Assembly (NCBI RefSeq): GCF_029889745.1
Contig: NZ_CP123639.1
Location: 2,027,501 to 2,091,500, forward strand
Length of the DNA: 64,000 nt
Origin: Ligilactobacillus faecis
GTDB lineage: Bacteria; Bacillota; Bacilli; Lactobacillales; Lactobacillaceae
Direction: 5' to 3'
The position numbers and the translations under genes are program-made. The notes below the pieces were generated by a model. The model saw only the letters and a program-made list of their open reading frames with translations. It was not told the origin of the DNA and searched no databases. Shown in pieces: positions 30,079 through 41,671 of the stretch; position 1 is the stretch's first letter, and every line of letters begins with the position of its first letter.

Positions 30079-30255
30079 ATGAAATCATTTGGTAAAGGCT
30101 TTTTAGCCGGTGCATTAACAGCTTTTGGTGCTGTTGCAGGTTGCGTTTTTGCTTTCAAAAAGACAGTTGTCGAACCGATCGAAGAACGTGAAGCAGTTTT
30201 AGACGAACATCGTCGTCGCGCTTTACGCAAACGACGTTCCTCACATCAAGGTTAA
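30079..30255 (+). CDS. DUF3042 family small membrane protein
   Basis: 58 residues, starting at ATG after AAAGGGGGTCG. The N-terminus is a glycine/alanine-rich hydrophobic helix (GKGFLAGALTAFGAVAGCVF), followed by FKKTVVEPIEEREAVLDEHR and an arginine-rich tail. This matches the DUF3042 pattern common in Lactobacillales. The function is unknown. It is a single gene with its own terminator, divergent from miaA. Confidence 0.85.
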   Translation: MKSFGKGFLAGALTAFGAVAGCVFAFKKTVVEPIEEREAVLDEHRRRALRKRRSSHQG

Positions 30256-30268
30256 ATATCAAAAATTC

Positions 30269-30314
30269 AGTCCCCGCTTTGCCCTGTAATAAGGTAAAGC
30301 GGGGACTTTATTTA
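30269..30314 (+). terminator. Terminator after the DUF3042 gene
   Basis: Stem AGTCCCCGCTTT with AAAGCGGGGACT, then TTATTTATT. The stem is 12 bp plus further pairing near the loop. Confidence 0.85.
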
Positions 30315-30324
30315 TTCTTATCGT

Positions 30325-30365
30325 TATGATATCATTATGATATCAAAGAGAGGTGATATTTATCA
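30325..30365 (+). promoter_or_regulatory. Tandem TGATATCA operators of the RHH-SPFH operon
   Basis: Two TGATATCA palindromes at 30327-30334 and 30338-30345 are exactly 11 bases apart, one helical turn. A third related palindrome TGATATTTATCA (30354-30365) covers the ribosome binding site and the A of the ATG. TATGAT -10-like hexamers overlap the first two. Phased short palindromes are typical of Arc/MetJ-type ribbon-helix-helix operators, and the first gene encodes such a protein, so autoregulation is likely. Confidence 0.65.
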
Positions 30366-30727
30366 TGGCCACATCTGAAATGACGTCTCTTTTATTTCGT
30401 TTACCTGAGACACTCAAGGAAAAATTATCTAAACGAGCTAAACAAGAAAATCGTAGTATCAACGCAATGCTCTTAGAGATCGTATCTAAAGAATTAAATG
30501 AATACCCATCTCAGCAAACTTCTGATATAGCTTTAGAGCATAGACACTTTTTAGGCCGCCTGATCTCTCCTAAACAATTCGCCGAACTCGATGGTCTCGT
30601 CAAGCTCGATGGGATCTACTATCGGTATCTGATCGAAAGCAATCGTCCATTTGATCCAACAGTAAACTATACTGTGATCGAGGCATTGGGGAATATCTTA
30701 ACACTTCGTCCACTATCACAAAAATAA
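30365..30727 (+). CDS. Ribbon-helix-helix (Arc-type) DNA-binding protein
   Basis: 120 residues. The N-terminal ribbon-helix-helix is clear: SLLFRLPETLKEKLSKRAKQENRSINAMLLEIVSKEL (split here as SLLFRLPETLKEKLSKRA and NRSINAMLLEIVSKEL). The C-terminal 70 residues, including RHFLGRLISPKQFAELDGL and IYYRYLIESNRPFDP, are not recognised. I choose ATG 30365 because the upstream in-frame GTG (30353) lies in the AGAGGTGAT ribosome binding site. It probably represses its own operon through the TGATATCA sites. Confidence 0.85.
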   Translation: MATSEMTSLLFRLPETLKEKLSKRAKQENRSINAMLLEIVSKELNEYPSQQTSDIALEHRHFLGRLISPKQFAELDGLVKLDGIYYRYLIESNRPFDPTVNYTVIEALGNILTLRPLSQK

Positions 30728-30757
30728 ATAAGCTACATAGAAAGGTGAGGAATTCAT

Positions 30758-31570
30758 ATGTTTGGTATCAAGATCGTTAAACAAAATTGTCGAGGCTTAG
30801 TCGAAACACTCGGGCGTTATTCTCGTTCAGTCGAAGCTGGACTTCATTTTTACATTCCGATCTTCCAAAAGATCCGCGTCGTTGAATTAGCGATGCACCC
30901 ACTACGTTTACAAAAATATTCGGTGATCACACAAGATAATGCCGATATCGAAGCAAGCGTTACGCTGAATTATCACGTAACTGATGCTAAAAAATATACG
31001 TACGAAAACTCTGACTCAGTTGAATCAATGGCCCAACTTGTTCGTGGTCATCTCCGAGATATCATCGGTAGGATGGAGTTAAATACTGCGCTAGGTTCGA
31101 CCTCAAAGATCAACGCTGAACTTGCCGCTGCGATCGGAGATTTGACAAATATTTATGGGATCAATGTTGACCGAGTCAACATCGATGAACTGACTCCTTC
31201 AAAAGAGATCCAAAAAGCAATGGATAAACAATTGACAGCCGACCGAGAAAGAGTAGCTATGATCGCTAAAGCTGAAGGTGAAGCTCGCAATATCAAACTG
31301 ACAACTGATGCGCGAAACAAAGCTTTAGTCGAAACTGCTCAGGCTCAAGCTCAAGCAACGCGCGCCAAGGCAGATGCCGAAAATTATCGGATCCAAAAGA
31401 TCCAAGCCGCCTTGCAAAATGTTGACGACAATTATTTCAAAGACCAAAGTATTGGGGCTTTTAAAGAGCTATCTAATTCAGAAACTAATTTAGTCGTGCT
31501 CTCCAAAGAAGAAATGACAAGTCTAGGACAAGTTCCAGTGATCCAAAAGATCTTAGAACAAACCAAGTAA
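30758..31570 (+). CDS. SPFH/Band 7 domain protein
   Basis: 270-residue member of the stomatin/prohibitin/flotillin superfamily. SPFH domain residues ~5-160: TLGRYSRSVEAGLHFYIPIF, VITQDNADIEASVTLNYHV, LVRGHLRDIIGRMELNTAL and VNIDELTPSKEIQKAM. A long Ala/Lys/Glu-rich helix (KAEGEARNIKL... AKADAENYRIQKIQAAL) likely drives oligomerisation. Unlike most family members there is no N-terminal transmembrane helix. It follows the RHH gene by 30 bases and should be coregulated with it. The function is unknown. Confidence 0.88.
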   Translation: MFGIKIVKQNCRGLVETLGRYSRSVEAGLHFYIPIFQKIRVVELAMHPLRLQKYSVITQDNADIEASVTLNYHVTDAKKYTYENSDSVESMAQLVRGHLRDIIGRMELNTALGSTSKINAELAAAIGDLTNIYGINVDRVNIDELTPSKEIQKAMDKQLTADRERVAMIAKAEGEARNIKLTTDARNKALVETAQAQAQATRAKADAENYRIQKIQAALQNVDDNYFKDQSIGAFKELSNSETNLVVLSKEEMTSLGQVPVIQKILEQTK

Positions 31571-31613
31571 ACTTTTCCGCTCAAAAAGATAACGGCGAAA
31601 AAGCCTTAAAATA

Positions 31614-31663
31614 GAAAAAAGGCTAAGGAGTTCCCCAAAAAAAGGTTCTCCTTAGCCTTTTTC
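31614..31663 (-). terminator. Bidirectional terminator between SPFH and adhesin genes
   Basis: Stem GGCTAAGGAG with CTCCTTAGCC extended by A/T pairs on both sides, with a large partly paired loop (TTCCCC...). It serves the plus-strand SPFH gene and possibly the minus-strand adhesin gene converging on it. Confidence 0.85.
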
Positions 31664-31735
31664 TAATACCATGATCATTGTACTTTAATTAAGCGATTTT
31701 CTCAGTCTATCTTTGGCATAGACCTCTTGCTCATT

Positions 31736-34700
31736 TCACTCTAGATCTGCTTTTTCATCTTCCTCTCTAGATTTCTTCTTACGCGTTCCCAAACCTAAGA
31801 AGGCAGTCCCACTCAGTATACTTAATCCTAACATCATAGCTACTGTATCAGAGCTAGCCCCTGTTTGCGGTAACTCATCCACTTTTTCATCTATTTCTAC
31901 TATCGCTCTATCGTTTGTGCTCGTTTGTTTGCTCAAAGTTCCGCTCTGAAGATCTGAGTGTTTTTGTCCTCTTCTATCTTCAATCGGAGTGATATTCTTT
32001 GGCAGTGAGTCCTTTTCAATGACAGTCTCTTCTTTTTCTTCAGACAGTACTTGATCCAATGAATAATAGATCGTTTGGATCTGATCTCCGCGCTCTGGAC
32101 TCAAGATCCGCTCTGCGATCATCTCTTTATCTGGCGTATATCCTGTAACACTTGGCGAAGTATGTGAAGGGATCTTTCCATCACCACTCCACATAGTCGC
32201 GATCGTCTCACCAGTTACGCGATCGATCGTATACACTGGAACAAATACTTTTTCGATCACTGTCGGAGGGAATACGGGACGTCCCTTATTTGGACCATTG
32301 TTGTAAATATAGTTAACTGTATCCGTGATAATATGAGGCTCTCCGATAACTTTCTTAACTCCATGTGTCAAGTAAACGTAGTAGTCTTGAGTAACGCTTG
32401 GATCTTCATCAAACGTTCCTTTCAGTGCTTCTGGTTGAGCCTCGATCAATTCATAACCGACTTTTTCAAAGTCCCACAACGTATTTGTATAGCTCGCATT
32501 CGCATCACCAGTCAAAGTTTGAAGCTGCGCTTCTAATTCTTTACCTGCTGTCGGTGTCGTTTCGACCCCATATGCATCGATATAGTGAACTTTGACTGTT
32601 TGCGTTCCTGCCGTGTAAACAACAGTTTCGACAATATCTTTTGCGTCGTAGGTCAAACTTTGACTGGCCACTTGTTTGCGATCAGCTACATAACCTGCGA
32701 CTTCTGGACTCTCTACTACTTCTGTCATTTGAGCTGGGCTCCATTCTGTCGCTAATACTTTATGCGTTACTGCATCTACAGTATCAATCGACGTGAAGCG
32801 ATACTCTTTAGTATACGTTTGAGCTGCAGTTTGCCCTTTCTGTGGTCCGTTCCCATAAACATAAGTGATCGTTTGGGTCACGACTTTTGAAGCTCCCGCT
32901 TCTTGTTTTTTACCATGGCTCAAACGGATAACGACGTTTTGATCGTGCTCACTATCATCATCAAAGTTCATTGGTAAAGGATCTTGACTATCTACAATAT
33001 ACCCTTGTGCTTCATAAGCTTTGGTGATCTCGCCATATCGTTTTTCAACTTCGGCTGGAAGATCACTCAAACTCTCACCTGTCGCAAGTTCTTCTTTATC
33101 AACTAAGATCTGTTCTGTTTCGTCACTATCGATCACTGTATATGTCAGTTTTTGAAGATCACCCGTATAGTAGACAGTAAATGTTTGAGCTGTACTTGTT
33201 GGAGTGACTTTAACTTCTGAGATCAAACTTTGATCTGCCGTATACCCTGTGATCTTTGGACTTACCACTTCTGTAAAGACCGCTTCACTTGGGGCCCAAG
33301 TTGCTTCACCGACTTTTTGCCCTGTGACTTGGTCTATCGTCTCTGTTGGGACGAACTCTTGAGTCCGGACGACACTTGGCGCTGCCACTTGACCTTTCTT
33401 TGGCCCACTACCATAGAGGTAATCGATCGTCTGAGTGACTGTGACTTTTTGGCCAACAACGTTTCTTAAAGCATGTGTCAAGTAAACGTAGTAATCTTGG
33501 GTGACGCTTGGATCTTCATCAAATGTTCCTTTCAGTGCTTCTGGTTGAGCCTCGATCAATTCATAACCGACTTTTTCAAAGTCCCACAACGTATTTGTAT
33601 AGCTCGCATTCGCATCACCAGTCAAAGTTTGAAGCTGCGCTTCTAATTCTTTACCTGCTGTCGGTGTCGTTTCGACCCCATATGCATCGATATAGTGAAC
33701 TTTGACTGTTTGCGTTCCTGCCGTGTAAACAACAGTTTCGACAATATCTTTTGCGTCGTAGGTCAAACTTTGACTGGCCACTTGTTTGCGATCAGCTACA
33801 TAACCTGCGACTTCTGGACTCTCTACTACTTCTGTCGTTTGAGCTGGGCTCCATTCTGTCGCTAATACTTTATGCGTTACTGCATCTACAGTATCAATCG
33901 ACGTGAAGCGATACTCTTTAGTATACGTTTGAGCTGCAGTTTGCCCTTTCTGTGGTCCGTTCCCATAAACATAAGTGATCGTTTGGGTCACGACTTTTGA
34001 AGCTCCCGCTTCTTGTTTTTTACCATGGCTCAAACGGATAACAACGTTTTGATCGTGCTCACTATCATCATCAAAGTTCACTGGTAAAAGATCTTGACTA
34101 TCTACGAGATACCCTTGTGCTTCATAAGCTTTGATGATCTCGCCATATCGTTTTTCAACTTCGGCTGGAAGATCACTCAAACTCTCACCTGTCGCAAGTT
34201 CTTCTTTATCAACTAAGATCTGTTCTGTTTCGTCACTATCGATCACTGTATATGTCAGTTTTTGAAGATCACCCGTATAGTAGACAGTAAATGTTTGAGC
34301 TGTACTTGTTGGGGTGACTTTAACTTCTGAGATCAAACTTTGATCTGCCGTATACCCTGTGATCTTTGGACTTACCACTTCTGTAAAGACCGCTTCACTT
34401 GGGGCCCAAGTTGCTTCACCGACTTTTTGCCCTGTGACTTGGTCTATCGTCTCTGTTGGGACGAACTCTTGAGTCCGGACGACACTTGGCGCTGCCACTT
34501 GACCTTTCTTTGGCCCACTACCATAGAGGTAATCGATCGTCTGAGTGACTGTGACTTTTTGGCCAACAACGTTTCTTAAAGCATGTGTCAAGTAAACGTA
34601 GTAATCTTGGGTGACGCTTGGATCTTCATCAAATGTTCCTTTCAGTGCTTCTGGTTGAGCCTCGATCAATTCATAACCGACTTTTTCAAAGTCCCACAAC

Positions 34701-37700
34701 GTATTTGTATAGCTCGCATTCGCATCACCAGTCAAAGTTTGAAGCTGCGCTTCTAATTCTTTACCTGCTGTCGGTGTCGTTTCGACCCCATATGCATCGA
34801 TATAGTGAACTTTGACTGTTTGCGTTCCTGCCGTGTAAACAACAGTTTCGACAATATCTTTTGCGTCGTAGGTCAAACTTTGACTGGCCACTTGTTTGCG
34901 ATCAGCTACATAACCTGCGACTTCTGGACTCTCTACTACTTCTGTCGTTTGAGCTGGGCTCCATTCTGTCGCTAATACTTTATGCGTTACTGCATCTACA
35001 GTATCAATCGACGTGAAGCGATACTCTTTAGTATACGTTTGAGCTGCAGTTTGCCCTTTCTGTGGTCCGTTCCCATAAACATAAGTGATCGTTTGGGTCA
35101 CGACTTTTGAAGCTCCCGCTTCTTGTTTTTTACCATGGCTCAAACGGATAACAACGTTTTGATCGTGCTCACTATCATCATCAAAGTTCACTGGTAAAGG
35201 ATCTTGACTATCTACGAGATACCCTTGCGCTTCATAAGCTTTGATGATCTCGCCATATCGTTTTTCAACTTCGGCTGGAAGATCACTCAAACTCTCACCT
35301 GTCGCAAGTTCTTCTTTATCAACTAAGATCTGTTCTGTTTCGTCACTATCGATCACTGTATATGTCAGTTTTTGAAGATCACCCGTATAGTAGACAGTAA
35401 ATGTTTGAGCTGTACTTGTTGGAGTGACTTTAACTTCTGAGATCAAACTTTGATCTGCCGTATACCCTGTGATCTTTGGACTTACCACTTCTGTAAAGAC
35501 CGCTTCACTTGGGGCCCAAGTTGCTTCACCGACTTTTTGCCCTGTGACTTGGTCTATCGTCTCTGTTGGGACGAACTCTTGAGTCCGGACGACACTTGGC
35601 GCTGCCACTTGACCTTTCTTTGGCCCACTACCATAGAGGTAATCGATCGTCTGAGTGACTGTGACTTTTTGGCCAACAACGTTTCTTAAAGCATGTGTCA
35701 AGTAAACGTAGTAATCTTGGGTGACGCTTGGATCTTCATCAAATGTTCCTTTCAGTGCTTCTGGTTGAGCCTCGATCAATTCATAACCGACTTTTTCAAA
35801 GTCCCACAACGTATTTGTATAGCTCGCATTCGCATCACCAGTCAAAGTTTGAAGCTGCGCTTCTAATTCTTTACCTGCTGTCGGTGTCGTTTCGACCCCA
35901 TATGCATCGATATAGTGAACTTTGACTGTTTGCGTTCCTGCCGTGTAAACAACAGTTTCGACAATATCTTTTGCGTCGTAGGTCAAACTTTGACTGGCCA
36001 CTTGTTTGCGATCAGCTACATAACCTGCGACTTCTGGACTCTCTACTACTTCTGTCATTTGAGCTGGGCTCCATTCTGTCGCTAATACTTTATGCGTTAC
36101 TGCATCTACAGTATCAATCGACGTGAAGCGATACTCTTTAGTATACGTTTGAGCTGCAGTTTGCCCTTTCTGTGGTCCGTTCCCATAAACATAAGTGATC
36201 GTTTGGGTCACAACTTTTGAAGCTCCCGCTTCTTGTTTTTTACCATGACTCAAACGGATAACGACGTTTTGATCGTGCTCACTATCATCATCAAAGTTCA
36301 CTGGTAAAGGATCTTGACTATCTACAAGATACCCTTGTGCTTCATAAGCTTTGATGATCTCGCCATATCGTTTTTCAACTTCGGCTGGAAGATCACTCAA
36401 ACTCTCACCTGTCGCAAGTTCTTCTTTATCAACTAAGATCTGTTCTGTTTCGTCACTATCGATCACTGTATATGTCAGTTTTTGAAGATCACCCGTATAG
36501 TAGACAGTAAATGTTTGAGCTGTACTTGTTGGGGTGACTTTAACTTCTGAGATCAAACTTTGATCTGCCGTATACCCTGTGATCTTTGGACTTACCACTT
36601 CTGTAAAGACCGCTTCACTTGGGGCCCAAGTTGCTTCACCGACTTTTTGCCCTGTGACTTGGTCTATCGTCTCTGTTGGGACGAACTCTTGAGTCCGGAC
36701 GACACTTGGCGCTGCCACTTGACCTTTCTTCGGTCCACTACCATAGAGGTAATCGATCGTCTGAGTGACTGTGACTTTTTGGCCAACAACATTTCTTAAA
36801 GCATGTGTCAAATGCACAACTACTTTCTGATCGGCAGTCGCATCTGAATCATATTTTTCTGGGATCTCGTCTTGACTTACGACTTCGTACCCTTGATCGA
36901 GGTATTTTTGTATCAATTCCTGATACTTGCTTTTGACCTGTTTATCGATCTCACTTTCTGCTCGACCTTCACTTAACAATTCATTTGAAACTAATGTTTG
37001 TGACGCATAATCATCAAGGATCGTTACTACTAATTTTTGAATATCTTCAACGTAGTTTACTCGATAAACTTGGATCTCTTTATCAACATCTCCTACATTT
37101 TCAGTCTCATCAAAAGTCAATTTAGCAGCCAAAGCTTCTGTGAGCGTCGTATATTCCTTTCCATCTGGGGCTAAGATCGTATAACGATATCCTGTACGCT
37201 TGAGTAATTCATCTGTGAGAGCTGAGTCTTTAAACATCACTTCACCTGAACGACCATCATTATAATATGGCGCCATTTGTGCTGCTTTCTCGACCGTATC
37301 TGGTATTATCTTTTGCGGATCATTTTGACTGATAAGGACCGCTTTTTGGAAATCACCACTATAGATCACAACAAAGTTTTGCGTGACGATCCCGTCGTCA
37401 GCCTTATCATCAAAAGTCCCCTGAGCTGATAACGCTTCTGCCAAACTGGTATATCTAGAGTTTCCGTTTTGGTCTACCAAAGCCTGACCTGTTTGATCAA
37501 CAACTTGGATCTGATACGTATAACCTGGTCGCTTCAATTGAGCATCTGTCACGTCAAATGTGATCTCTGCGATACCTGTTGGTGTTGCTCCTGGTATTTG
37601 ACTAGTATTAGCATGTGGATCACCAGTAGCTTCTGCTAATTTAGTTCCTGTTAAAGATCCTTCAAAAAGTCGTGCTTGATCGACCTGATAGTGACGTGTA

Positions 37701-40700
37701 ATGATCGTCGAACCACCGGCAGCTAAAACTGGGGAAGTTCGAGTATCATTTACAAACTGATATCCCTTAATTACTGGTGCTTTTTCTAAGAAATAAGCTC
37801 CTCCAACTTTCCCGATCAAACCAGGATTTTCAACTTCATATTCACCTGTTTTTTCATTCAATGTAACTTTACCTTGAATATCTGGATAACCATTGATTCG
37901 GTTTCCTGCTTGATCTACGATCTGGACAGTCGCATAAGTTGCATAACTATCTGTAACATCCCCAATAATGAGCGAAGTTTGATCTTTATAGCCGGCCGTT
38001 TGTCGCAGAGTAACTTTCTTTGACATATTATCATTACTTGTTGGTGAGTAGGCATTGAATTGGTACATGATCTTGTTTTCGCTACTGAAATTTGATATAG
38101 ATAAAATCAAAGCTTTGATTTGCGACCAATCTGTAACTTGATCTGCAGTCAAAAATTCACTTGGGATCATTTCACCTTGCGTCCAAGTTCTTCCATCATC
38201 AAAGGTCAAAGTTGTTCCATCACTACTCAACGTCACCAGATGCGTCGAATAATAGAGCGTATTAGGATCGTGCATTGTATTATTTAGTGGATTTGTGTCT
38301 AATACACCCGCACCGCTGATATTTAAAGTAAATTCCTGTTTGACGTTTGGATTATTTGGATCGACTCCCCCTGCTTGTGGCAAGTTCATTACTGAGATAA
38401 CATTTTCCAAAGCTCGTGGCATATTATTGGCTAATCCAAACTGGAGTTTTTGTAAGCCCTCTTTCCCAGTGGCACTCTCTAAATAATCTTTAGTCTGATA
38501 ATTCAAACCTTCCGCAGAAAGTGAAAAATCACTTGTTCCCTTGATCAAAGGAAGTGGTTTGACCTCACTTGGCGCAATAATTCGGAAGTAATAGTTATTA
38601 CTTCCAGCATCGATCATCGTTGTATCAGCAACTGTCCCATCTTCGAATTTGATCTGTGCTTTTCGGTTAGCAGGAATATCTGATTGGCTCGTATCGCCTC
38701 CAAGTTGGATCCAACTTGTATTGCTATCACTATTCACATTTGCTGCATAAGCTCTCAACCCTTCTGTCGAAATGCCCTTTTTAGCAAGTTCAGCTTTAGT
38801 ATAAAGGGTGATCGCAACGTTATTCTTTTTGTCTTCATAAGCATATAACGTTTCAGTTGTCCGCCCAACGTCAAACCCGTTGATCGCATTTTCTATGACT
38901 TTTAAGTTGAAAAGCAAGCGCATCTTCGGAGTAAATTTAAAATCAGTCCCCCGCCAATCTAAGATCACTACCGTTTGACCAGCGCTATTTTTCTTTTGCG
39001 TGATCTTTGGTGGAACAACTGCTATTTGTTTTCCATTGAGTGTAACTTGATAAAATTTATTATCGCGGGCAAAATCGGTCAACTCTGTTTGATCAGGCAT
39101 GGTAAAGTAAACAACTGGTTCTTTGATCGTACCATATTCAACCGTCAAAGCATGTCCCGGTAGATCAGTTGCGGTTGCATTTCCCTTTCCGACCAATACC
39201 CCTGAGGCATCTAAATTACTACCACTACCTGTAGCACTGATCGCCCCTAACGTTTCAAACCCCATGACAAAAGAATCTCCCGCTTTATACGCTGTCTGAT
39301 TATTAGCAGTATTCACTCTTGATTCGGGCCAATTATAATTTTGAAGTGGCAATTTCAAAGGTTCAGCAACTTCAACTCTAAAGTCAGCTACTATCCTTTT
39401 ATATTCAGATTCGACTGCGATCTTAGAGCTATATATTTGACCGATCTGGGCTTTCGAATTTAAATACCCCAAAATATTGATGTATCCAGAATTGATATCG
39501 TTTAACGCATTTTTCCCATTAGTTCCATTTACTGAAGCTTGAAGTGCATTAGCATAATATTTATTATCTGGTGTCACATCATAAGCTACGATCCTAGTTC
39601 CATCAGCAAGTTTTACCCCTTGACTAAAACTTCCTAGGTGATCGATCCGGCCTGTCAAAGGATCATAATTATCACCTGCTTGTAAGCGTTGAGTGATCTT
39701 TGTTCCATCTGACCCAGTTACTACTACAGTATAACCAACTTGAGCTGGGTTGTATGAGCCAAAATCAGAAAAATCATTGGTTACATTATTAAGCGGTAAA
39801 GTGATACCAGTTATAGTGATCTCATCTGGAAACTCAAAATGATAAGTTGGTGTAAATTCTGTCAGACCGTTTGCACTCAAACCTACAGCATATAATACTG
39901 GCGCAGTGCTATCACCTTTCTCAGAAGGGGTTCGTCTGACAGGCTCTATGGAAGTCCCACTACTTACAGCATCAGGATCTTTGAGCGTGTCATAAGAATC
40001 ATTGCGCACAGTCAATTTATGGTTACTTGTCTGTTCACTATTAGAATAGCGAAGAATAAGATCAAAATTTTCATGTACTGCGGGGATCGTTTTTCCATCT
40101 ACTACTTTAGTCGCATCTTTAGCTAAGACCTTTTGTTGGAATCCTCGTGCCTGTGGATTTAACTCAGCTGGATCAAGAGCTGTGCCCGTATCGATATTGA
40201 CTTCACCAAAATACTTCTTTTGCCCATCTCCAAGATCGATCCACCCAGAAGGTGAGGCACTTTTCCCAGATGTTTGAGTACTTGTGTAGCGTCCGATAAA
40301 TGGTAGCTTAGCACTTATTTGCTCAAAAATGATCGGTTTGACACTTTCGATAATGATCGCTGTCCCCTCACCACCAGGTTGACTGACCGTTATGGTCCCA
40401 TTCAAGTAAGGGTCTGCCATATTTTTGAGATATTTAGCCGTTGCATCAGTATCTAGTACAAAATGCTCTGGTACAGGAATTTGTAATTTTACATAACCAC
40501 GAGCAGTTGGCTTTTTCCCCGCGATCAGTGGTGTTTCTAACGTATCCACGGTGTAAACATAATTTGTATCGACTGTGACTGTCGTTTGCCCGGCTTCACT
40601 TACAGCATCTGCTTTAGTGCTCACCTCAGCTCCAGTCACATTTACTTGTTTAGCTAACACGATCTTAACGTTAGAACTCGCTGAAACTGGTTGCTCATTT

Positions 40701-41671
40701 ATTAAAAAACTGATTAGGTAATTGTCACCACTGACTAACATGTCTTCACTTGCGGAACTACCAACATATGGCCAATATTGATCAGCTACGATCCGCGCTT
40801 CCTCTGAAAAGAAATTAAGTGGCGGGATCGTCTGAGTAACTGTTGCACTCGCGTTGTCAGCAACTCCACTGATCGTCCATGTATATTTGTAAGCCCCATT
40901 AGCTAAGGCGACCACAGTTGGCGTACCTGTAGGGCGTAATGCTTGGGCAGCACTTAGATTACCATTTTTAGCAGCGGAAGGCGTAATGATCATACTAAAT
41001 GTATCATTATTTTTTCCAGTATAAGAAATGTTCATACCGATCTTACCAGAAGTTGACATTGTATTGTCAGTTGTATAAGTATATTTGGTTGAACCATCAG
41101 CTTCTACTTGAGAACTCAACTTCCCGTTATTATCCGCACTGACATTCGTCACTTTGATCGCTTTTTGCTCCTCGACCTCTGCCGCTTCTGAAAGTGCTCG
41201 ACTTGTTGCAGTAACCACCGGACTGCTGGTCTCACTTTCAATATTTACTGTAGACTCTGATGAAGTAGCTTCTGAAGTCGCAACTGCCAAAGATGTTTCA
41301 CTTGAGTTTTCTGAAGTATTTAGCAATTCACTGTTCTCTGAGTGCGGTTGCACCGATTGCGATGTATTCGTTTCCAAATTTTCTAGATCTGGATCATTCG
41401 AGTTTTCGTCAGCATTTGCAGTCACGTTTGTCTCAGAAGTTTTTTCAGTTGCCGAATCCTCCTCCTCAACTGTAGCACGCTCTTCGGTTTTAGGATCCAT
41501 CGATAGCGTTGTTATCTCATCTGCTAAAATCGGAGCTTGTAGTAAAAAGGCAGCACTAAACAATGCAACACTAGAAACGACCCATAACTTCTTTTTTTTA
41601 TATAATTTAAAACGTCTCGTTTCTTCAGTCATATATTTTTGAAGACGTTGTTTTCTCTTTTTATTTTCCAA
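31736..41671 (-). CDS. Giant LPXTG cell-wall mucus-binding (MucBP) adhesin
   Basis: 3,311-residue surface protein. A KxYKxGKxW-type signal peptide (KLYKKKKLWVVSSVALFSAA, residues ~22-41) is followed by a Ser/Thr/Glu-rich stretch to ~170. Large beta-rich adhesin-like regions with no family I can name run to ~1,300, then divergent Mub-like units. Residues ~1,624-3,103 are four 370-residue repeats, each with MucBP/Mub-B2-like modules (VVGQKVTVTQTIDYLYGSGP, KLTYTVIDSDETEQI, QTVKVHYIDAYGVETTP). A degenerate unit and the sortase signal LPQTG (~3,267), hydrophobic helix and KKKSREEDEK tail close it. The TTG start at 41671 lacks a good ribosome binding site; ATG 41632 is an alternative. Confidence 0.93.
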   Translation of the reverse strand: MENKKRKQRLQKYMTEETRRFKLYKKKKLWVVSSVALFSAAFLLQAPILADEITTLSMDPKTEERATVEEEDSATEKTSETNVTANADENSNDPDLENLETNTSQSVQPHSENSELLNTSENSSETSLAVATSEATSSESTVNIESETSSPVVTATSRALSEAAEVEEQKAIKVTNVSADNNGKLSSQVEADGSTKYTYTTDNTMSTSGKIGMNISYTGKNNDTFSMIITPSAAKNGNLSAAQALRPTGTPTVVALANGAYKYTWTISGVADNASATVTQTIPPLNFFSEEARIVADQYWPYVGSSASEDMLVSGDNYLISFLINEQPVSASSNVKIVLAKQVNVTGAEVSTKADAVSEAGQTTVTVDTNYVYTVDTLETPLIAGKKPTARGYVKLQIPVPEHFVLDTDATAKYLKNMADPYLNGTITVSQPGGEGTAIIIESVKPIIFEQISAKLPFIGRYTSTQTSGKSASPSGWIDLGDGQKKYFGEVNIDTGTALDPAELNPQARGFQQKVLAKDATKVVDGKTIPAVHENFDLILRYSNSEQTSNHKLTVRNDSYDTLKDPDAVSSGTSIEPVRRTPSEKGDSTAPVLYAVGLSANGLTEFTPTYHFEFPDEITITGITLPLNNVTNDFSDFGSYNPAQVGYTVVVTGSDGTKITQRLQAGDNYDPLTGRIDHLGSFSQGVKLADGTRIVAYDVTPDNKYYANALQASVNGTNGKNALNDINSGYINILGYLNSKAQIGQIYSSKIAVESEYKRIVADFRVEVAEPLKLPLQNYNWPESRVNTANNQTAYKAGDSFVMGFETLGAISATGSGSNLDASGVLVGKGNATATDLPGHALTVEYGTIKEPVVYFTMPDQTELTDFARDNKFYQVTLNGKQIAVVPPKITQKKNSAGQTVVILDWRGTDFKFTPKMRLLFNLKVIENAINGFDVGRTTETLYAYEDKKNNVAITLYTKAELAKKGISTEGLRAYAANVNSDSNTSWIQLGGDTSQSDIPANRKAQIKFEDGTVADTTMIDAGSNNYYFRIIAPSEVKPLPLIKGTSDFSLSAEGLNYQTKDYLESATGKEGLQKLQFGLANNMPRALENVISVMNLPQAGGVDPNNPNVKQEFTLNISGAGVLDTNPLNNTMHDPNTLYYSTHLVTLSSDGTTLTFDDGRTWTQGEMIPSEFLTADQVTDWSQIKALILSISNFSSENKIMYQFNAYSPTSNDNMSKKVTLRQTAGYKDQTSLIIGDVTDSYATYATVQIVDQAGNRINGYPDIQGKVTLNEKTGEYEVENPGLIGKVGGAYFLEKAPVIKGYQFVNDTRTSPVLAAGGSTIITRHYQVDQARLFEGSLTGTKLAEATGDPHANTSQIPGATPTGIAEITFDVTDAQLKRPGYTYQIQVVDQTGQALVDQNGNSRYTSLAEALSAQGTFDDKADDGIVTQNFVVIYSGDFQKAVLISQNDPQKIIPDTVEKAAQMAPYYNDGRSGEVMFKDSALTDELLKRTGYRYTILAPDGKEYTTLTEALAAKLTFDETENVGDVDKEIQVYRVNYVEDIQKLVVTILDDYASQTLVSNELLSEGRAESEIDKQVKSKYQELIQKYLDQGYEVVSQDEIPEKYDSDATADQKVVVHLTHALRNVVGQKVTVTQTIDYLYGSGPKKGQVAAPSVVRTQEFVPTETIDQVTGQKVGEATWAPSEAVFTEVVSPKITGYTADQSLISEVKVTPTSTAQTFTVYYTGDLQKLTYTVIDSDETEQILVDKEELATGESLSDLPAEVEKRYGEIIKAYEAQGYLVDSQDPLPVNFDDDSEHDQNVVIRLSHGKKQEAGASKVVTQTITYVYGNGPQKGQTAAQTYTKEYRFTSIDTVDAVTHKVLATEWSPAQMTEVVESPEVAGYVADRKQVASQSLTYDAKDIVETVVYTAGTQTVKVHYIDAYGVETTPTAGKELEAQLQTLTGDANASYTNTLWDFEKVGYELIEAQPEALKGTFDEDPSVTQDYYVYLTHALRNVVGQKVTVTQTIDYLYGSGPKKGQVAAPSVVRTQEFVPTETIDQVTGQKVGEATWAPSEAVFTEVVSPKITGYTADQSLISEVKVTPTSTAQTFTVYYTGDLQKLTYTVIDSDETEQILVDKEELATGESLSDLPAEVEKRYGEIIKAYEAQGYLVDSQDPLPVNFDDDSEHDQNVVIRLSHGKKQEAGASKVVTQTITYVYGNGPQKGQTAAQTYTKEYRFTSIDTVDAVTHKVLATEWSPAQTTEVVESPEVAGYVADRKQVASQSLTYDAKDIVETVVYTAGTQTVKVHYIDAYGVETTPTAGKELEAQLQTLTGDANASYTNTLWDFEKVGYELIEAQPEALKGTFDEDPSVTQDYYVYLTHALRNVVGQKVTVTQTIDYLYGSGPKKGQVAAPSVVRTQEFVPTETIDQVTGQKVGEATWAPSEAVFTEVVSPKITGYTADQSLISEVKVTPTSTAQTFTVYYTGDLQKLTYTVIDSDETEQILVDKEELATGESLSDLPAEVEKRYGEIIKAYEAQGYLVDSQDLLPVNFDDDSEHDQNVVIRLSHGKKQEAGASKVVTQTITYVYGNGPQKGQTAAQTYTKEYRFTSIDTVDAVTHKVLATEWSPAQTTEVVESPEVAGYVADRKQVASQSLTYDAKDIVETVVYTAGTQTVKVHYIDAYGVETTPTAGKELEAQLQTLTGDANASYTNTLWDFEKVGYELIEAQPEALKGTFDEDPSVTQDYYVYLTHALRNVVGQKVTVTQTIDYLYGSGPKKGQVAAPSVVRTQEFVPTETIDQVTGQKVGEATWAPSEAVFTEVVSPKITGYTADQSLISEVKVTPTSTAQTFTVYYTGDLQKLTYTVIDSDETEQILVDKEELATGESLSDLPAEVEKRYGEITKAYEAQGYIVDSQDPLPMNFDDDSEHDQNVVIRLSHGKKQEAGASKVVTQTITYVYGNGPQKGQTAAQTYTKEYRFTSIDTVDAVTHKVLATEWSPAQMTEVVESPEVAGYVADRKQVASQSLTYDAKDIVETVVYTAGTQTVKVHYIDAYGVETTPTAGKELEAQLQTLTGDANASYTNTLWDFEKVGYELIEAQPEALKGTFDEDPSVTQDYYVYLTHGVKKVIGEPHIITDTVNYIYNNGPNKGRPVFPPTVIEKVFVPVYTIDRVTGETIATMWSGDGKIPSHTSPSVTGYTPDKEMIAERILSPERGDQIQTIYYSLDQVLSEEKEETVIEKDSLPKNITPIEDRRGQKHSDLQSGTLSKQTSTNDRAIVEIDEKVDELPQTGASSDTVAMMLGLSILSGTAFLGLGTRKKKSREEDEKADLE
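32361..36800 (-). repeat. Four tandem 1,110-bp repeats inside the adhesin gene
   Basis: Exactly spaced 1,110-bp units, approximately 32361-33470, 33471-34580, 34581-35690 and 35691-36800. They differ by only a handful of substitutions, for example AQMTEVV in the first and last protein repeats against AQTTEVV in the middle two, and DPLPVNF/DLLPVNF/DPLPMNF variants. The near-identity points to recent duplication or gene conversion, and copy number is likely to vary among strains and to be hard to assemble from short reads. Confidence 0.95.

Follow-up and report, generated by a model that had tools for sequence, protein, structure and literature searches.

What does a ribbon-helix-helix (RHH) regulator do beside a protein of the SPFH kind? 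The question is raised by a two-gene unit in a 64,000-nucleotide stretch of the Ligilactobacillus faecis chromosome (contig NZ_CP123639.1, forward-strand positions 2,027,501 to 2,091,500; this whole stretch is called the window here, and positions are counted within it). The original prediction, made from the window alone, described an RHH gene with an unrecognised C-terminal domain, followed 30 bases on by an SPFH gene without a membrane anchor and preceded by two TGATATCA sites one helical turn apart. The RHH gene, the 30-base gap, the missing anchor, and the sites, which lie 11 bp apart in front of the RHH gene, were all borne out. The C-terminal domain can be recognised, however, as an OB domain of the NfeD type, which in stomatin operons is the domain that binds the partner. 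On balance, the unit seems to be a rebuilt, self-regulating NfeD-stomatin pair in which autorepression is coupled to the SPFH assembly via the OB domain. The elements on which this reading builds are as follows.

30327 to 30345, + strand: operator of two TGATATCA half-sites 11 bp apart (identified by sequence and conservation; exact only here genome-wide)
30327 to 30334 and 30338 to 30345, + strand: the half-sites of this operator
30365 to 30727, + strand: RHH-OB gene, 120 amino acids (Arc PF03869; OB domain by profile and fold)
30758 to 31570, + strand: SPFH gene, 270 amino acids, stomatin/QmcA-like, no membrane helix (Band_7; QmcA chain of 8z5g)

Residues 1 to approximately 50 of the RHH-OB protein form an Arc-like RHH domain (Arc PF03869, E 1.5e-6), and the Arc family signature was found in 22 of 24 orthologues. 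The OB domain spans approximately residues 57 to 120 and carries invariant Gly, Tyr, Arg, and Asn residues. Its identity is supported by profile, genome-wide, and fold comparisons. The Pfam NfeD family PF01957 (labelled "C-terminal, partner-binding domain") matched 12 of the 24 orthologues below the cut-off (best E 0.0016), and when 80 genomes were searched in six frames, six of them (G008, G014, G015, G016, G017, and G022) had the C-terminal part of the RHH protein as their sole PF01957 match (E 0.0016 to 0.0065, all below the cut-off). The L. faecis genome contained no other PF01957 match at E 0.01. When profiles were compared with each other, the C-terminus aligned with NfeD C-termini at a probability of 84 (E 7.6e-6) and with stand-alone OB proteins at 97 (E 8.7e-11), whereas the RHH half, used as a control, reached 0.6. 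An AlphaFold2 model of RHH-OB (pLDDT 79.9, pTM 0.46) had as its top five Foldseek matches 3wwv (titled "stomatin operon partner protein 1510-C"), 8z5g chain AA (QmcA-YbbJ), 2k5h (MTH693), 2exd, and 3cp0, with E values of 0.011 to 0.16 and none at 0.001; AmrZ and Arc came shortly after. Four of these five have titles that refer to NfeD, the stomatin operon, or membrane-protease regulation; 2k5h is the exception. A VIA comparison superposed residues 56 to 119 on 3wwv (Z 7.2, 2.2 Å over 60 residues) and gave a Z of 6.8 for 8z5g chain AA.

The second protein is an SPFH protein of the stomatin/QmcA kind. Band_7 was its sole family over the cut-off (E 1.4e-34), the gene is the only Band_7 gene in the L. 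faecis genome, and the best PDB match was chain A of 8z5g both by sequence (E 1.3e-26) and by fold (E 2.1e-14). Since the tail of the RHH protein and the SPFH protein match two chains of 8z5g, both genes map onto one known two-protein complex. Like the NfeD-SPFH operons (QmcA-YbbJ of 8z5g, PH1510-PH1511), the unit places an NfeD-type OB gene (PF01957 below the cut-off) beside a gene for an SPFH protein of the stomatin/QmcA kind. According to one study (PMC2636767), NfeD itself is a membrane protein whose OB domain is preceded by hydrophobic stretches. In RHH-OB those stretches are absent and the Arc-like domain stands in their place; thus, the membrane part of NfeD has been replaced by a DNA-binding domain. 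The pair also differs in having its own operator and an SPFH protein without an anchor. Because the membrane part that defines NfeD proper is absent, the unit is not an ordinary NfeD-SPFH member; it would act as a cross between an NfeD-SPFH pair and an Arc repressor.

The missing anchor is not an artifact of the chosen start codon in the window. Only three codons of open frame precede the SPFH start, so an overlooked upstream membrane helix is excluded there. Next to RHH-OB genes, the SPFH protein lacked a membrane helix in 23 of 24 relatives, in all 80 public loci (a set that overlaps the 24), and in 16 of 18 divergent loci. By comparison, SPFH proteins beside a full NfeD were anchored in both loci looked at (L035 and L036), those beside a stand-alone OB gene were anchored in 10 of 15 (L194, L195, and L197 to L204) and unanchored in five (L190 to L193 and L196), and those with no such partner were anchored in five of seven (L205 to L209) and unanchored in two (L228 and L229). 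Broadly, this agrees with a departure from the membrane as DNA binding was gained, although exceptions exist. Of 12 SPFH subfamilies, 2 (SPFH8 and SPFH9) seem soluble according to the same study (PMC2636767). The SPFH model also matches chains of the vault, a soluble cage whose major vault protein contains an SPFH domain; the vault differs in being eukaryotic and built of a very long protein. We know of no DNA-binding partner of major vault protein.

Among 80 genomes of relatives, L. faecis included, 24 encode the RHH protein and 58 have an SPFH match; in all 24, the RHH gene is followed closely on the same strand by the SPFH gene, whose product in the 23 other genomes is 64 to 88% identical to that of the window. 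In a public genome collection, 106 stretches matched the pattern and 83 encode a relative, of which 80 were kept. They include loci of Ligi-, Liquori-, Furfuri-, Lenti-, Lati-, Compani-, Pauci-, Levi-, Loigo-, and Bombilactobacillus as well as Oenococcus, Pediococcus, and Leuconostoc. The SPFH gene is next on the same strand in every one of them, with a gap of at least 237 bases in four (L139, L178, L181, and L182). The gene pair is thus conserved across lactobacilli, and we did not meet the unlinked genes that would have spoken against the original prediction. The gap measures 237 to 410 bases in a few genomes; in L039, a frame for a basic 112-residue protein (positions 1957 to 2295 of that locus) lies inside the gap. 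Across 26 genomes of the genus Ligilactobacillus, we found the RHH pair in 14, a true NfeD in seven (over the cut-off, with a distant SPFH protein of 31 to 32% identity), SPFH alone in one, and none of these in four; none of the 26 had both the RHH pair and NfeD. The pair also occurs on plasmids: 19 plasmid records matched it, all from Ligilactobacillus; in L. salivarius it lies on a 220-kb plasmid with an exact operator (L307, NZ_CP007647.1).

The operator is conserved as well. The window has six copies of TGATATCA against 1.54 expected, a count reached in 0 of 100 shuffles; the four copies outside the operator are single sites elsewhere. In the 2.38-Mb L. faecis genome, the exact pair TGATATCA-N3-TGATATCA occurs once only, and pairs with up to three mismatches occur at 31 places, versus 10 for the pattern read backwards (G000). 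To score conservation, two TGATATCA words were fitted as closely as possible to each of 80 upstream regions, and all spacings between 8 and 32 bp were tried (79 public Lactobacillaceae loci and the window; L139 was excluded as its contig starts inside the gene). At a spacing of 11 bp, 78 of the 80 regions had at least 13 of 16 matches (reached by 5 of 2,000 shuffles) and 76 had at least 14 (0 of 2,000); L120 and L126 fell short of the threshold. The original prediction had named a lack of conserved upstream sites as a reason to drop it, and the opposite was found. The second-ranking spacing was 22 bp (48 of 80 regions at 13 matches), reflecting a weak third half-site in phase with the other two (offset +22, mean of 4.42 of 8 matches in 78 loci). 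The original prediction also noted a third palindrome, TGATATTTATCA, over the ribosome-binding site. It exists, but it is out of phase with the two TGATATCA sites and is not conserved at its offset of +27 (mean of 2.8 of 8 matches in 78 loci); we rejected it as an operator element, and it looks like chance. Because TGATATCAT itself contains a −10-like TATCAT, we did not use a count of promoters over the operator.

Presence of the operator goes together with one residue of the RHH domain. Among 103 distinct RHH-OB proteins, 88 have an arginine at the place of residue 12 in the protein of the window (Arg12), and the operator was found with 84 of these 88 versus 0 of 14 proteins without the arginine (15 such proteins exist; L139, cut off by its contig, was dropped), a comparison that shared descent inflates. 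The tree of arginine losses, built on few columns and with long branches, is too weak to count events and gives no firm number of losses; it places the proteins without arginine in several separate places, for example L226 beside L147, and its group table covered only the two groups that were labelled. The matching residue of Arc contacts bases, and the operator halves of Arc are likewise 11 bp apart. RHH-OB shares with Arc/Mnt-type repressors the RHH fold with the Arc signature, an arginine at the base-reading strand, and a paired palindromic operator at its own promoter. It differs from them in that the unit is chromosomal, the RHH domain is fused to an OB domain, and the gene is paired with one for a scaffold protein.

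These features suggest the following mechanism. Through its Arc-like domain, RHH-OB would bind both TGATATCA sites and repress the promoter at that place, which we consider very probable. Its OB domain would bind the assembly formed by the SPFH protein, a contact that we consider probable. As the SPFH protein has no membrane helix, this assembly may be cytosolic or lie at the membrane surface. If its amount or state changed, for instance through membrane stress or recruitment to the membrane, the supply of free repressor would change too, so that expression would follow the state of the scaffold. Titration, in which the assembly draws the repressor away, appears the most likely form of such coupling; its direction and its signal are each a matter on which we are evenly divided. 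PspA titrates PspF in the phage shock protein (Psp) response, an analogy only. Psp systems, including pspA-ydjGHI of Bacillus subtilis with its SPFH protein YdjI, likewise involve a membrane-associated protein that forms scaffolds and serve in envelope stress; they differ in that our unit has no PspA and its regulator is RHH-OB. One study indicates that YdjI needs partner proteins for its membrane location (PMC8581546). In Oenococcus oeni, another study lists an SPFH-domain protein among those most reduced when the mechanosensitive channel MscL was overexpressed under ethanol (PMC13209313). The single Band_7 gene of the O. oeni genome that we searched (G738) is located where this unit lies (L127), from which we infer that the two proteins are the same, although strains may differ. 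That finding would fit a link to membrane tension. Among food bacteria, the searched genome of Pediococcus pentosaceus likewise has one Band_7 gene and that of Levilactobacillus brevis two. As to the earlier proposals, position and covariation give good support to an autoregulated two-gene unit, whose regulation is predicted, and a role in membrane stress is plausible on indirect grounds.

A second arrangement of the same parts extends beyond lactobacilli. Within Bacillota, the RHH-OB profile matched 18 of 398 genomes, L. faecis included; in these 398 genomes, no match other than that of L. faecis covered the OB part in an intact frame. In nine of 14 further phylum loci, an SPFH gene is directly followed by a short RHH gene, and operator-like sites scoring 13 to 15 of 16 matches lie in front; two of these nine short genes were confirmed by a short-RHH profile. 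The other five loci encode HicB-like proteins (named by eye) and have no such operator site. The short-RHH profile gave 96 matches in 95 of the 398 genomes. In 30 phylum loci examined, a nearly whole SPFH gene lies just upstream in 28 and only its C-terminal part in two (L274 and L276), and the operator is present in 28, in 27 of them at 14 matches or more; in shuffles of the upstream regions of these loci as first delimited, 0.33% of 900 reached 13 matches. Within the order, 26 of 246 genomes matched the profile. The 21 strong loci comprise 20 with a nearly whole SPFH gene and one with a remnant (L292), and 20 have the operator at 15 to 16 of 16 matches in a scan of the first 1,500 bases; the last, L300, is at a contig end. 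Four further order matches are the RHH-OB proteins of Lactobacillaceae (G028, G029, G129, and G155) and two weak ones are in G061; no separate short RHH match was found in the Lactobacillaceae genomes of the order sample. The gene order of this sister form is thus reversed, with SPFH first and the short RHH gene behind it. In L274 and L292, the operator and the RHH gene are kept and the SPFH gene is reduced to its C-terminal end; these natural SPFH deletions could test what the RHH protein does alone. Two distant Bacillota, L237 and L242, have behind the SPFH-RHH unit a gene for a YbjQ-like protein (named by eye; positions 1709 to 2029 and 861 to 1184, respectively) and also a gene for a small membrane protein.

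In one genome, G058, the two modules occur separately: an OB gene stands with the gene for an anchored SPFH protein of the stomatin type (L037), and the SPFH-RHH unit (L249, L297) has an exact operator. The window SPFH protein is close to the stomatin-type protein of G058 (E 2e-53) and distant from the SPFH protein of the SPFH-RHH unit (E 0.06), and the window RHH domain matches the short-RHH profile at a probability of 98 (E 1.4e-14). Because the window SPFH protein is akin to that of the NfeD-type module while the RHH domain and operator are of the SPFH-RHH kind, the lactobacillus unit looks, on the simplest reading of these sequences, like a merger of an SPFH-RHH module with an NfeD-stomatin pair.

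Several observations weigh against reading the unit as a self-regulating NfeD-stomatin pair. Binding, repression, and contact are all predicted. PF01957 never reaches the cut-off in the 24 orthologues searched and does not match the window protein itself; the Foldseek E for the OB part is 0.011 at best, and the VIA Z values of 7.2 and 6.8 could by themselves reflect no more than a common arrangement, the 7.2 being tied with RHH rows. Anchor loss is not strictly tied to DNA binding, since a few stand-alone OB loci also have an anchorless SPFH protein, and two SPFH proteins beside RHH-OB are anchored (L024 and L227) and one is unclear (L225). Some RHH-OB proteins lack both arginine and operator, so the switch would appear to have been lost or changed in several lineages. 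Moreover, the loci are not independent, because coverage of the public collection leans to close species: many of the 80 are closely related (over twenty are Levilactobacillus), and the 80 and the 24 have some genomes in common.

Other explanations share much of this evidence. The SPFH assembly could be a co-repressor, such that RHH-OB docked on a ring holds the operator tighter and the unit provides plain negative feedback on scaffold amount with no stress input. Linkage, OB domain, and operator data agree with this as well as with titration, which they do not separate from it, and rings of many copies, such as QmcA with 26 (PMC12624060), could cluster repressors; we judge co-repression unlikely. 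If RHH-OB were mainly an autorepressor, with the OB domain serving only its own folding or oligomerisation and SPFH carried passively in the operon, one would understand why an RHH protein without an OB domain still goes with SPFH and the operator elsewhere in Bacillota. This seems improbable to us, given that OB is the domain of the SPFH partner in known operons, is kept in RHH-OB with its invariant residues, and stands alone before SPFH genes in other lactobacilli. RHH domains also occur in partition proteins, and some PHROG matches are named partition, so that RHH-OB might tether DNA to a platform of SPFH protein that organises the chromosome or the membrane, with repression secondary. The genome of L. 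faecis has one exact site, at the promoter of the unit itself, and because a single site is poor for tethering, we regard this as very improbable.

A toxin-antitoxin-like pair or a defense module had also been proposed. A small RHH gene in first place, a second gene 30 bases on, and a phased operator do resemble an antitoxin-toxin arrangement, and antitoxin RHH domains align with the RHH-OB model. Against this, the second protein is a scaffold of the stomatin type in which Band_7 alone exceeded the cut-off and no known toxin family did; the gene order is reversed in the sister form, nearly all genomes searched have one match each, and no phage record matched the unit. In PADLOC, the sole match was a marginal DruF (E 0.033), and there was none for the SPFH protein. 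On these family, PADLOC, and phage searches, we rejected both proposals, and an RHH antitoxin with an SPFH toxin is hardly credible.

Sites resembling the operator also occur away from the unit. The L. faecis genome has three paired sites with two mismatches: one inside a 683-residue frame, one in the last part of a frame, right before another begins, and one (L044) 20 bases in front of a 62-residue tautomerase-like frame (named by eye). Sites with at most one mismatch number 19, in 16 of 60 relatives; 13 are at the unit itself, one is at the SPFH-RHH unit of G058, and five are elsewhere. Three of these five (L244, L245, and L247) precede an orthologous membrane-protein-like gene (61% identity between G016 and G008; G015, 71% over 59 residues on its contig) for which Pfam gave no match. 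The remaining two precede a CPBP/CAAX-type protease gene in G008 (PF02517, E 1.5e-14) and a bacteriocin-immunity gene in G032 (PF08951, E 3.1e-10).

Taken with the sister form, these sites allow a wider proposal, which we rate as slightly less likely than not. Bacillota may have a class of membrane-sensing transcription units whose SPFH ring or cage governs the Arc-type repressor of the unit, which acts at a conserved TGATATCA operator. Among Lactobacillaceae, such a unit would have been rebuilt by fusion of the repressor to the partner-binding domain of NfeD, taking over the NfeD-stomatin pair, with the SPFH protein losing its anchor and becoming a signal-transducing, possibly cytosolic cage; some species would have drawn in further targets (the membrane protein, the CPBP protease, and the bacteriocin-immunity gene). 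The role of bacterial SPFH scaffolds and of their NfeD partners is a question of long standing. With a DNA-binding domain on the partner, the state of an SPFH assembly would gain an output that can be read with a reporter, in harmless food bacteria, and the phylum-wide pairing of RHH genes with one operator sequence offers a way to study how a second SPFH subfamily, itself widespread, is regulated. Both hint at a little-studied link between membrane state and gene control. In the open-licence PMC literature, we found no paper tying an RHH regulator to SPFH or NfeD: the one text that mentions them together does so through a cited title on VirC2, papers naming both SPFH and CopG treat other subjects to judge by their titles, and none joined SPFH to the Arc family or PspA, NfeD, and SPFH to a transcription factor. 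The OB identity of the C-terminal domain, the Bacillota-wide short-RHH form, and the joint presence of operator and Arg12 are new here.

Around these genes, the window contains the following.

30079 to 30255, + strand: DUF3042 gene (PF11240, E 4.5e-25)
30269 to 30307, + strand: hairpin terminator of the preceding DUF3042 gene (RNA fold −27.8 kcal/mol, z −6.3)
30354 to 30365, + strand: third palindrome TGATATTTATCA over the ribosome-binding region (present in the sequence; probably chance)
31612 to 31665, + strand: hairpin terminator 3′ of the SPFH gene (RNA fold −27.3 kcal/mol, z −6.5)

The unit is thus bounded on both sides by strong hairpins, in agreement with the terminators foreseen there; a simple terminator scan listed neither of them. 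A frame whose end resembles that of the DUF3042 gene also lies upstream of the unit in L002 to L004. Just downstream of the unit, on the minus strand, is a 3,311-residue frame (31736 to 41671) for what by eye is a giant cell-surface protein, with long near-identical repeats and an LPQTG-like motif at its C-terminus.
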